Of a stretch of DNA of 32,422 nucleotides, positions 15,915 to 26,065 are shown piece by piece (position 1 is the stretch's first letter; each line of letters opens with the position of its first letter). The DNA is from a virus. The translations under genes were made by a program, and so were the position numbers. A model generated the notes under the pieces. The model did not search any database and was not told the origin of the DNA. It worked only from the letters and a program-made list of their open reading frames with translations. The DNA is taken from positions 1 to 32,422 of the IMG/VR virus record IMGVR_UViG_3300036770_000539. One strand, 5' to 3'.

Positions 15915-15943
15915 TTTCAAGACAAAATGACCCAAATCAATCG

Positions 15944-16014
15944 TTGCCCCGTGAGGACTCGAACCTCAACGCTCTCAGTCAAAGTGAGATGAACTTCCAT
16001 TATTCTACAGGGCA
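15944..16014 (-). tRNA. tRNA-Gln (anticodon TTG)
   Basis: On the minus strand: acceptor TGCCCTG pairs with CGGGGCA (one G-U), then T8-A9, and a short D arm with the usual AATGG in its loop. The anticodon stem TCTCA/TGAGA closes the loop CTTTGAC with anticodon TTG. A 4-base variable loop and T stem TGAGG/CCTCA with loop TTCGAGT follow. The discriminator base is A and no CCA is encoded. The D stem is weak (three clear pairs). The gene begins at the base after a 26-bp repeat shared with the neighbouring tRNA-like gene. Confidence 0.93.
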
Positions 16015-23038: not shown

Positions 23039-23158
23039 TCAATATTGTTTCCACACTATCTTAGTTGTAAGTGATTCGTCAACTGATACTAATTCCCATC
23101 CTAACTTTGTGTACTTTCTCCAGTAATAGATGACTTCCTCTTCATTGTTAAGACAAAT
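23039..23158 (-). CDS. Small protein with no ATG start (39 aa)
   Basis: Translation from ATT at 23156-23158 gives (I)CLNNEEEVIYYWRKYTKLG, then WELVSVDESLTTKIVWKQY and a stop at 23039. The acidic start, 'YW-KY-K-GWELVS' core and basic end look like a real small protein of the kind seen in Bacteroidota phage replication operons. An ATG at 23143-23145 in another frame gives only 14 codons. The ATT would overlap the end of the DnaA-domain gene by 11 bases, in line with the spacing of other genes here. Confidence 0.45.
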   Translation of the reverse strand: MCLNNEEEVIYYWRKYTKLGWELVSVDESLTTKIVWKQY

Positions 23159-23633
23159 ATGGAGATATTCTCGTGACCTCCGTAAGGTAATCGTCAGGAA
23201 TCGCATTTAGTCTTGATTTAATTCTGTTGTGCATTGCAGTCTCAAACTTCATATTAATGTCTAAATAGTCGCCTATCATATCTCTGCCGTGTATTACTGT
23301 GCTATGGTCACGGTTTAAATATAGCCCGATTTTCTTGAGTGATTGATTTAGCTCGTTGTATGCAAAGAAACAAAACATTGCTCTTGCTATTACATACTCA
23401 CGCTTTCTTGACCGAGAGAAAAAGTCTTTAGGGATAACGTTAGATTCCTGACAAACTATTCTGAGTAGTTCATCAAAGTTCTTGTCAACCTTTTTTGTTT
23501 TCTGCTCAGGCTTTAAGATCATTTGTCTTAACTCCTGAATCTCTCTCTTAGCACTTTCAAGCTTGTTTTCGTACGTTGTTTTTAAACGAGTGTGTGCTGC
23601 TTTTAATTTGATGTATTCGTATTCGTAGTTCAT
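23148..23633 (-). CDS. DnaA domain IV replication protein
   Basis: A 161-residue protein. The N-terminal ~40 residues form a coiled coil (KTTYENKLESAKREIQELRQ). After a Lys-rich linker, residues ~70-125 match the DNA-binding domain IV of DnaA. The recognition loop is R-D-H-S-T-V-I-H (residues 108-115) and the preceding helix is SRKREYVIARAMFCFFAYNE. The AAA+ ATPase domain is absent. It probably binds DnaA-box-like sites in the phage or host DNA; it may help origin opening or titrate host boxes. It overlaps the helicase stop in the usual ATGA manner. Confidence 0.88.
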   Translation of the reverse strand: MNYEYEYIKLKAAHTRLKTTYENKLESAKREIQELRQMILKPEQKTKKVDKNFDELLRIVCQESNVIPKDFFSRSRKREYVIARAMFCFFAYNELNQSLKKIGLYLNRDHSTVIHGRDMIGDYLDINMKFETAMHNRIKSRLNAIPDDYLTEVTRISPYLS

Positions 23634-24847
23634 AGTATTTCTTTATATCGTGTGTAACGCCCTTCAAATGAAATCGGTACAACTCCGCATTGACCGTGTC
23701 TGTTCTTTGCAATAATTAATTCAGCATCCATTTCAATGTCAGGTCTTGTGTCCTCGTAGTAACTTGGTCTGAATGGAAATAGAATAACGTCTGCGTCTTG
23801 TTCTAATTGACCGCTTTCTTTTAAGTCTGAAAGTGTTGGTTGCGTCTTTGCTGATTCTTCTCTTTTTAACTGAGCCAGTGCAATGATTGTAATTCCTAAT
23901 TCTTTAGCTAACTGTTTTAATCTTTTACTTGCATCTGATACCATTTCGTACCTTGTCTTTCCGTGTCCTTCGATTAGCTGCAAATAGTCAAGCACAACGA
24001 CATCTAAACCAAACTTTACTTTATGCAATCTTATTTGTGCGGTAATGTGGTCTATTTTTCTATTATTAGCGTCTATGATGTGAAAATCTTTTCCAAGTGA
24101 GTACATCTGTGTTGAAATGCGTTCAATGTCCTGTAATGTCATAGATGCGTTTCTTATTTTGTAGTTTTCAATTTGAGCAAAATAACTGATGTATCTCTGT
24201 GCTAATTCTTCTTTGCTCATTTCAATAGTGTAAAGTAAAACATTTGCCCATTTGCAGCAGTCAACTGAGAGTGATAAACCTAATGCAGTTTTACCCATAC
24301 CAGGACGACCACCTACAATAATTAGGTTTCCTTTGTGGTAACCACCAATGAACTTGTCTAAGTATCTCCACCCTGTACTTATGCCCTGCAAATTTGTTCC
24401 CTGTTCAACTGCTTTTGTAATTACATCTAACACACCACCTGCAACCTTAGATATTGTATAAGAACGGTCTAAAACAGATATTCGTGAACGCTCTAAAATC
24501 TCCATTAATTCATTCTGTATAGTATCAATGGGTTTGCGTTCATCAATGGTCATGATGCCCTCAATTAATATTTTCTTTTTATAGTCAAGTTCTAAAATAA
24601 GCAAATCTCTTTCTATTGACTTATCAGAACATAGAGCAGTAAATATCTGAGATAATTCAAATGCCTTATTTGGAAACATCTTATAAAGTGCATTTACAGA
24701 TATAACGGTGTTCGAATGGTACATATCTTTCATGGCTCTCATAATATCCTTGTGAAAGCCTGAGAACCATTCTGGATCTGTTTTACCGATAAATGCTTTT
24801 GCGTAATCCGTCTGCATCATTGCAGATATCACATTTATTTCAATCAT
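23630..24847 (-). CDS. dnaB: Replicative DNA helicase (DnaB-like)
   Basis: A 405-residue protein with a short N-terminal domain (~1-120, VISAMMQTDYAKAFIGKTDP) and a RecA-fold helicase domain. Walker A is G-G-R-P-G-M-G-K-T (residues 179-187), Walker B is VVVLDYLQLI (residues 283-292). The H3/H4 region is 'ALAQLKREESAKTQPTLSDL' with 'SGQLEQDADVILF'. This is the standard phage DnaB layout. It starts 8 bases inside the end of the O-like initiator gene, so loader/initiator and helicase are co-translated, as in lambda O-P type modules. Confidence 0.95.
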   Translation of the reverse strand: MIEINVISAMMQTDYAKAFIGKTDPEWFSGFHKDIMRAMKDMYHSNTVISVNALYKMFPNKAFELSQIFTALCSDKSIERDLLILELDYKKKILIEGIMTIDERKPIDTIQNELMEILERSRISVLDRSYTISKVAGGVLDVITKAVEQGTNLQGISTGWRYLDKFIGGYHKGNLIIVGGRPGMGKTALGLSLSVDCCKWANVLLYTIEMSKEELAQRYISYFAQIENYKIRNASMTLQDIERISTQMYSLGKDFHIIDANNRKIDHITAQIRLHKVKFGLDVVVLDYLQLIEGHGKTRYEMVSDASKRLKQLAKELGITIIALAQLKREESAKTQPTLSDLKESGQLEQDADVILFPFRPSYYEDTRPDIEMDAELIIAKNRHGQCGVVPISFEGRYTRYKEIL

Positions 24848-25505
24848 TTAAATTAAGTTTAGAGTAAGACTTAGATACTGTTTCAATTTGTTTTGACTTA
24901 TAAGGCATTTCATCTTGCCACTTTTTTAGATTTATATATTTTTCAAAATAAGGTAAAAATTGTAACTTATCATTATCTATATGATTTTTAACGTATAAAG
25001 GTAAATGTTCTTCAATTGCCTCAATAGTCTTCTTTGATAGTTTTTTAAACCTATCTAATGATGTTTGCTTTGTACCTCTTTTTGTATATGTATTCCAAAG
25101 TTTTTCAAACCTTTCTATTATACTATTATTATTATTTGTATTACTATAATTATTACTGTCGCAATCCTGCGGTGAGGGGTAGTCGCAATCCTGCGGTGAG
25201 GGTATACGCATTTCTGCGGTGGGGTTCAATGTGTCAACTACAAATATCTTTCTGCTTACAATTTCATTTTTATCATTCCTGGTAATAACTCTTCTTATAA
25301 GTTGTTTTGATTCTAAAAATGTTAAATCTCTTTGCAATGAATCAACTGAACAGTTTAATATTTCAGATAGTGTTTTATTACTTGCATAGCAATAACCTTC
25401 ACGCTTTGACATACCATTTAACACACCAAGCAAAATTGCTTGTCTATGCGTAGTCTTGTCTAAAATAAAAGTTTGAAATATTACGAATTTACCTGCTGAG
25501 TCCAT
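24840..25505 (-). CDS. O-like replication initiator with winged-helix domain and internal iterons
   Basis: A 221-residue protein. Residues ~10-95 are a winged-helix/HTH (HRQAILLGVLNGMSKREGY; 'YASNKTLSEILNCSVDSLQR'). The middle (~95-130) is low complexity and codes the repeated 'PSPQDCD' plus an Asn-rich stretch. The C-terminal ~90 residues (ERFEKLWNTYTKRGTKQTSL) resemble the helicase-interacting end of phage O/DnaD-type proteins. The low-complexity part coincides with tandem dyads and an AT-rich tract, so the gene probably contains the origin it acts on. The start at 25505 overlaps the preceding gene by 25 bases. Confidence 0.8.
   Translation of the reverse strand: MDSAGKFVIFQTFILDKTTHRQAILLGVLNGMSKREGYCYASNKTLSEILNCSVDSLQRDLTFLESKQLIRRVITRNDKNEIVSRKIFVVDTLNPTAEMRIPSPQDCDYPSPQDCDSNNYSNTNNNNSIIERFEKLWNTYTKRGTKQTSLDRFKKLSKKTIEAIEEHLPLYVKNHIDNDKLQFLPYFEKYINLKKWQDEMPYKSKQIETVSKSYSKLNLND
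25104..25222. other. Candidate replication origin: three iterons with dyads plus AT-rich tract
   Basis: Three tandem units of 23-24 bp lie at about 25155-25222. Each has a dyad with arms CGCA and TGCG around a 4-base centre: CGCAATCCTGCG at 25160-25171 and 25184-25195, and CGCATTTCTGCG at 25207-25218. The arms are conserved while the centre differs in the third unit. A stretch that is almost only A/T (25112-25158) is next to them and could be the unwinding element. The arrangement inside an initiator gene is that of the lambda O gene origin. Confidence 0.72.
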
Positions 25506-25684
25506 AAAGCTGATTTTATTTCATTAATGTTTTCAGGAGTACCCCAATATTTACCTGATATATGCTCAATGTAATGAGCAAATTCTTCAACGTAAAAGTA
25601 ATACTCTGTTAAAAATTCTCCGTTTTTGTAAAGGTCAATTACTACTTCATTGCCTTCAATTCTTGTTTTTGTTTTAAAATTCAT
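25481..25684 (-). CDS. Small hypothetical protein behind the structured RNA (67 aa)
   Basis: Start taken at MNFKTKTRIEGNEVVIDLYK because an upstream ATG (25702) lies inside the terminator stem. The protein is acidic and beta/alpha mixed (GEFLTEYYFYVEEFAHYIEH). It is the first gene of the replication operon and lies only 5 bases after the T run of the terminator. It is therefore expressed either by read-through of that terminator or from another start. I do not recognise the family. Confidence 0.68.
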   Translation of the reverse strand: MNFKTKTRIEGNEVVIDLYKNGEFLTEYYFYVEEFAHYIEHISGKYWGTPENINEIKSALWTQQVNS

Positions 25685-25689
25685 TGCAT

Positions 25690-25838
25690 AAAAAAAGCCC
25701 ATCAGATTTACGGTAGTGAAGGTACGCGTAAACCCAACGGGCTAATATCTTTTTAACTTTTGGAATCCTTCACATTCCAGTTAGTTGCTATTTTAACAGA
25801 GAGGAAGCAGGTGTTGTTACTACCCCTCTGATTTGGTG
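25690..25838 (-). ncRNA. Structured RNA with three hairpins, kissing-loop-like contact and terminator
   Basis: On the minus strand this 149-base intergenic stretch has: (a) hairpin 1, CAGAGGGG/CCTCTCTG (25823-25830 with 25797-25804, one G-U); (b) hairpin 2, TGGAAT/ATTCCA (25774-25779 with 25761-25766) with a 7-base loop GTGAAGG; (c) hairpin 3, a 17-bp stem AGCCCGTTGGGTTTACG / CGTAAATCTGATGGGCT with four G-U pairs and a 14-base loop, followed by six T. The loop of hairpin 3 contains CCTTCAC (25716-25722), the exact complement of the whole hairpin 2 loop. A promoter precedes it. It may be a stand-alone small RNA or a leader that controls read-through into the replication genes. Confidence 0.75.
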
Positions 25839-25842
25839 TATG

Positions 25843-25873
25843 CAAATATAAACTAAATTTCTGGATTTTCCAA
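25843..25873 (-). promoter_or_regulatory. Promoter of the structured RNA
   Basis: On the minus strand TTG (25871-25873), a 20-base spacer and TATATTTG (25843-25850), a full match to TAnnTTTG. It overlaps the last codons of the 70-residue gene upstream. The start point would be near 25838, a few bases before hairpin 1. Confidence 0.7.
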
Positions 25874-26065
25874 CTGAATAAATCCAGTATGTCGATTACT
25901 TCCCATTTCTTTTAAAAATTGCACTTCTACTTTTGCAGAGTTAATGATTACCTGTGCAACCTCGCTGATTGCTCTTGCCTTCTCTATTTCCATGTCTCCG
26001 TCTTTAAGCATTTCAATAGTTTCAAATAGATGGTGTCTCAGGTCTTGAATTTTGTCTTTTGCCAT
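25853..26065 (-). CDS. Small helical phage protein (70 aa)
   Basis: A 70-residue protein starting MAKDKIQDLRHHLFETIEML. 'KARAISEVAQVIINSAKVEV' forms its second helix. The order 'DLR-HLF-(T/A)-(I/L)E-LKD' then 'A-(A/S)I-EVAQ-IINSAKVEV-(F/Y)LK' is a well-known small family in Bacteroidota phages, always near replication genes. Its function is unknown. It overlaps the end of the HNH gene by 44 bases, and its 3' end contains the promoter for the structured RNA. Confidence 0.8.
   Translation of the reverse strand: MAKDKIQDLRHHLFETIEMLKDGDMEIEKARAISEVAQVIINSAKVEVQFLKEMGSNRHTGFIQLENPEI

Follow-up and report, generated by a model that had tools for sequence, protein, structure and literature searches.

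The stretch of DNA analysed here, referred to as the window, is an IMG/VR virus record of 32,422 bases. Profile scans of 30 window proteins identified replication functions (an HTH_36 initiator, DnaB and a DnaA C-terminal domain), the recombination genes ERF and YqaJ, and HNH endonucleases, terminase, portal and other structural proteins; no integrase or lysogeny gene was found among these 30. The RNA described below lies on the minus strand, as do all window features given here, between a 70-aa gene assigned to PHROG 2044 (25853-26065) and the replication genes. The first open reading frame on its 3' side (25481-25684; 67 aa, ATG at 25684) has no Pfam or PHROG match. It is followed by the first replication gene of the operon, the HTH_36 initiator (24840-25505), a DnaB-like helicase (23630-24847) and the protein with a DnaA C-terminal domain (23148-23633). 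PHROG 2044 is named RNA polymerase beta subunit, a doubtful name for a 70-aa gene given its size, and its relatives are present in many phages that have no such RNA. The window also carries a tRNA-Gln gene with anticodon TTG (15943-16014).

The RNA spans positions 25838 (approximately) to 25690. As originally predicted, a promoter of the form TTG-N20-TATATTTG is present, together with hairpins and a T-run. The promoter is of the Bacteroidota type (25843-25873) and overlaps the end of the upstream gene, with the TTG at 25873-25871 and TATATTTG at 25850-25843 after the 20-nt spacer. In the minimum free energy fold, hairpin 1 occupies about 25797-25830 and hairpin 2 occupies 25761-25779. Hairpin 2 has a 6-bp stem (arms 25779-25774 and 25766-25761), a 7-nt loop, GTGAAGG (25767-25773), and an outer AACT/AGTT stem beneath. 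The A-rich linker seen in the alignment (25743-25760) starts with AGTT, which can pair into this outer stem and leave about 11 nt single-stranded. The intrinsic-terminator hairpin (25697-25742) has a wobble-rich middle stem and a 7-nt loop, CCTTCAC (25716-25722), and is followed by a run of seven Ts (25690-25696) that is invariant in the seed alignment. All 7 nt of the two loops are exact complements, which confirms the match claimed at the outset. The four G·U pairs claimed for the terminator stem are also there, but the stem has 16 bp and, beyond a bulged C, another 3 bp, rather than the 17 bp first counted. The 149-nt RNA has a minimum free energy of -48.3 kcal/mol, compared with -29.1 ± 3.8 for shuffled sequences (z = -5.1; 0 of 200 shuffles). 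Rough helix-length estimates, which rest on an assumed rise per base, give only a hint that the outer stem, the kiss and the full terminator might together need a sharp bend. Right behind the T-run, ATGCAATGA at 25689-25682 holds a two-codon open reading frame (ATG CAA TGA) that overlaps the 25684 start codon. The ATGNNATGA arrangement after the T-run recurs in loci L004, L010, L011, L014, L050, L053 and L083.

Used as a direct DNA query against named phages and plasmids, the window RNA gave no match, and the family was reached via neighbouring proteins. Searching with the initiator protein yielded 42 viral loci, several of which showed the same arrangement with loops that were different but matched. 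More than 300 further loci, partly overlapping, were collected through the terminator pattern, PHROG 2044, the DUF6291 replication protein and two other replication proteins. Bacterial and archaeal genomes scanned with one pattern and one protein profile contained no member. A MAFFT alignment was dropped because it misaligned hairpin 2 in divergent members; a covariance model lacking the kiss took its place. This model, R1, derives from 15 seed sequences, encodes nested pairs only and no loop–loop pairing, and finds 62 distinct homologues. Its seeds were picked by a detector that required loop complementarity; most of its hits are non-seeds, and its alignment is biased to the nested structure, not to the kiss.

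At gathering thresholds, Rfam 15 matched only the tRNA in the window and nothing in 15 member loci, in line with the earlier statement that no named RNA family is known with this exact set of features. Low-score matches to MESTIT1 and mir-305 were attributed to chance. The titles and abstracts returned by searches of open-access literature contained no description of the RNA; subscription papers lay outside the scope of that search, and a prior description is possible. The window RNA belongs to a large RNA family that is apparently undescribed, widespread and located at a likely control point of phage replication.

The search for compensatory changes by covariance model, proposed together with the original prediction, showed changes on both sides for all seven kissing pairs across the 62 homologues. 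The same holds for 10 of 10 hairpin 2 pairs, inner and outer (5 of 5 aligned pairs in the inner stem), and for 18 of 19 terminator pairs. Of the cells at these pairs, 96% are paired, and the covariation score of the whole structure is 0.672, compared with 0.192 for shuffled and at most 0.096 for slid versions. The loop–loop cells of the 62 homologues comprise 414 Watson–Crick, 2 wobble and 3 mismatched pairs; L139, L143 and L152 are misaligned at the loops, and each has its own 6-nt complement. There are 17 exact 7-nt codes in this aligned set. Mean loop pairing is 7.0 for a molecule's own loops and 4.1 when partners are swapped, with none of 272 swaps fully paired. A chance match of the loops (4^-7 per register) is ruled out because pairing is kept across 62 homologues and 17 codes.

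Genes for relatives of the L033 and L286 replication proteins supplied a further set of upstream regions, a few of whose loci repeat earlier contigs. Among 85 distinct regions, 38 have a terminator-like T-run and 34 a terminator hairpin. In 30 of these 34, a stretch of 6 nt or more is complementary to the loop of the terminator, as against 120 of 1122 combinations with partners swapped, a figure inflated by shared codes. Some sequences in this set could not be aligned with the window RNA. Taken together with the cultured phages considered below, the two sets hold about 30 codes, natural kissing-loop pairs that would make useful parts for RNA engineering.

Loop–loop complementarity is kept by covariation, as in a kissing RNA, and the locus almost certainly encodes an RNA fold with matched loops. 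The original prediction of a structured kissing-loop RNA with a terminator at the head of the replication operon stands on this covariation, on position and on the absence from Rfam. It had named conserved sequence with unconserved pairing as the observation that would speak against it; the homologues show the opposite, with the sequence changing and the pairing staying. A long inverted repeat adjoining replication genes could also act as DNA, for instance as an origin palindrome or a protein site. This is highly improbable given that conserved G·U pairs break a DNA palindrome, as had been argued from the window, that the covariation fits the RNA strand, and that promoter and T-run are kept.

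The conserved core of the family consists of hairpin 2, the linker and the terminator, within a predicted RNA of about 100–150 bases that many phages of Flavobacterium-like bacteria appear to produce. Of the three hairpins proposed as a set, two thus belong to the core, while only 13 of 62 distinct members have hairpin 1 or some other additional leader hairpin, and hairpin 1 is dispensable. Hairpin 1 is found in the window clade (25830-25797) and varies among relatives (L004, L014, L080). It is terminator-like in some, with a T-run behind it, and the leader might in such cases hold two tandem attenuators. The -7 box TAnnTTyG is found upstream in 67 of 67 members and the full promoter TTG-N18-22-TAnnTTyG in 49 of 59. 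In all 60 members with a called open reading frame, the first one starts 0–11 nt past the RNA end or T-run. A stem and T-run accordingly lie between promoter and gene, which is the architecture of an intrinsic terminator or attenuator. The basal three pairs of the terminator contain no wobble; in the next seven (pairs 4 to about 10) wobble pairs reach 15–74%, and above these they are mostly rare, a pattern that is purely descriptive since the baseline for ordinary terminators is two hairpins. Folding of truncated transcripts revealed no alternative antiterminator, and a candidate antiterminator from the 5' arm (a CCC-GUU-GGG mini-hairpin) was rejected as not conserved. A consensus scan up to 200 nt downstream found an antisense promoter in 1 of 59 members.

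The first gene 3' of the RNA, as classified by Pfam in 40 loci, is DUF6291 in 20 and HTH_36 in 4, and the RNA still heads the replication operon where the first gene belongs to another family. About half of the examined DUF6291 phage loci are without the RNA, so it is not essential to the DUF6291 gene. Its own promoter and terminator would make a complete small RNA gene, and it could merely end at the T-run with the replication genes expressed by other routes. Such a free small RNA, with the linker acting on host or phage targets, the hairpins as scaffold and the position incidental, is improbable: the single-stranded linker is poorly conserved beyond its outer-stem part, and the operon-head position is kept whatever the family of the first gene.

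Promoter, terminator and start-codon position instead point to an attenuator. A start codon 0–11 nt past the T-run leaves no room for another promoter, and the first gene should therefore need read-through of the terminator and opening of its stem. As judged from sequence, the RNA is probably a promoter-proximal leader attenuator that gates the replication operon, with a strict kissing code, specific to each phage, setting the terminator. The lack of an antiterminator fold in the truncated transcripts and the RNA's absence from about half of the examined DUF6291 loci count against this reading. It is plausible that hairpin 2 decides whether the terminator forms, as originally suggested for hairpins 1 and 2 together. 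Hairpin 2 would fold first and capture the terminator loop as this loop exits the polymerase, and the kiss, on a stem whose middle is weakened by wobble pairs, would set how often the terminator completes.

The loops are spaced 45–51 nt centre to centre in 65 members, and this spacing is near-constant even among members that could not be aligned, which favours a contact in cis. A purely structural contact could explain the constrained spacing, and the covariation of the central kissing pairs, which resembles that of stems, agrees with it. The kiss would then serve to make the terminator compact or strong, or to protect the 3' end from decay, while the code drifted through compensatory changes and had no identity role. 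We regard this as rather unlikely: wobble intermediates are nearly absent from the kiss (2 of 419 cells) compared with the terminator stem (228 of 1145), and the replacement of whole RNAs among near-identical phages resembles exchange, not drift.

This replacement is seen in several comparisons. Between the window phage and the L004 contig, neighbouring genes are 96–98% identical and the RNAs 58–63%. Two contigs of sample 3300043464 have different codes and RNAs with 61% identity between flanks that are 97% identical. L146 and L151 have flanks that are 95–100% identical and differ in both halves of the code (GTCGCAG against GTGGTAG). The called codes, that is the complementary segments, differ in 129 of 211 pairs having at least one flank at 85% identity or more (the pairs are not independent), and at least seven called-code changes, one of them probably a mis-call, were placed on a 20-row tree. 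Conversely, L048 and L050 have identical RNAs in unrelated contexts. Flanks that are near-identical around a divergent RNA and code indicate that the RNA was exchanged, or changed, as a unit in close phages, and exchange occurred without a matching protein gene.

Such exchange favours a role in specificity and hence an action in trans. The terminated leader's hairpin 2 loop could target the terminator loop of nascent leaders with the same code and so close the replication operon of superinfecting or extra copies. P4 CI RNA and plasmid incompatibility RNAs are the models for such immunity or copy control. All of the exchange data agree with this proposal. Near-constant spacing, even in unalignable members, argues instead for an intramolecular contact; the window holds no convincing trans target apart from the RNA itself, and the lack of a lysogeny gene among the scanned proteins also speaks against it. 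The proposal is credible at somewhat less than an even chance, and the same grade applies to a trans identity role of the code in general. Cis and trans contacts are compatible if leaders of the same code compete with the contact in cis. Terminated leaders of same-code phages could, within the attenuator proposed above, compete in trans for the kiss, and this would explain why codes are readily swapped between near-identical phages. A yet more tentative version sees a new class of phage RNA, with one RNA carrying both halves of a phage-specific code, the terminator loop as lock and the upstream hairpin loop as key, so that recognition of self and non-self leaders would gate replication. If true, phages would possess an RNA-coded form of immunity or copy control that needs neither an antisense RNA nor a repressor protein. 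A loop code so strict and so fast exchanged offers a direct test of whether RNA-coded identity decides between replication and exclusion.

Endonuclease-like genes of the HNH and GIY-YIG types lie between the RNA and the replication gene at L014:2306-2560, at L017:557-856 and, by inspection only, in L032 between 2523 and 3001, as if the spot right behind the RNA were an insertion site for such genes. With HNH or GIY-YIG genes adjoining the RNA in several members, homing endonucleases might drive the sequence divergence while pairing was kept for structure only. This appears quite improbable, as many members with different codes have no such gene separating the RNA from the replication gene and DUF6291 is directly downstream in 20 of the 40 classified loci.

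Several known systems resemble parts of this arrangement. The immunity RNA of P4, CI RNA, is a processed RNA that acts through Rho-dependent termination. Like it, the window RNA is predicted to be a leader with internal complementary segments that stands at the start of a replication operon and regulates this operon through termination; unlike in P4, the target loop is borne by an intrinsic terminator. ColE1 RNA I and RNA II form kissing loops between two RNAs from opposite strands. Common to both cases is a fully complementary 7-nt loop–loop helix of variable sequence tied to replication control, whereas the window family has both loops on one strand of one RNA, with no antisense promoter seen. 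The countertranscript attenuators of pT181 and pIP501 likewise have a replication-gene leader with an intrinsic terminator but require an antisense RNA; the single consensus antisense promoter among 59 members, from a consensus scan only, gives no indication of countertranscript control of the ColE1, pT181 or pIP501 type. The order of promoter, upstream structure, terminator and gene is that of intrinsic terminators and riboswitch-type attenuators. Unlike the latter, the family has no ligand-type conserved core, and matched loops of variable sequence are conserved instead.

Of 120 phage records with a relative of a DUF6291 replication protein, 93 are Flavobacterium phages. Matched loops of at least 7 nt are present in Cellulophaga phages phi19:3 and phi13:2, in Flavobacterium Lillamyvirus, Muminvirus and Hattifnattvirus, in elemoA and in Olleya Harreka_1. 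The loop pair sits 5' of the DUF6291 gene or of a small gene before it, with a spacing of 48–63 nt. The first detector, which required tight stems, overlooked the Lillamy/Mumin-type and elemo cases and picked up Harreka only in part; a wider detector recovered all of these. No matched loop pair was found in Aeromonas 4_L372X, Pseudoalteromonas PS_L5 or a Spirosoma plasmid. The promoter type suggests a host of the window phage among the Bacteroidota, and the presence of the RNA in cultured phages supports this. With the RNA in cultured Flavobacteriia phages, the hypotheses above are testable now.

Two other leaders were noted. The viral contigs L077, L078 and L104 also have a Bacteroidota-type promoter, but the conserved leader behind it is a different one, which ends in TTGATGGGCTTTTTTTATGCCC and lies outside the loop-code family as far as seen. 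The leader at L112:7379-7490 combines matched loops (GTGGAAA/TTTCCAC) with a long terminator, has no Bacteroidota promoter box, and is possibly an independent case of the same design.
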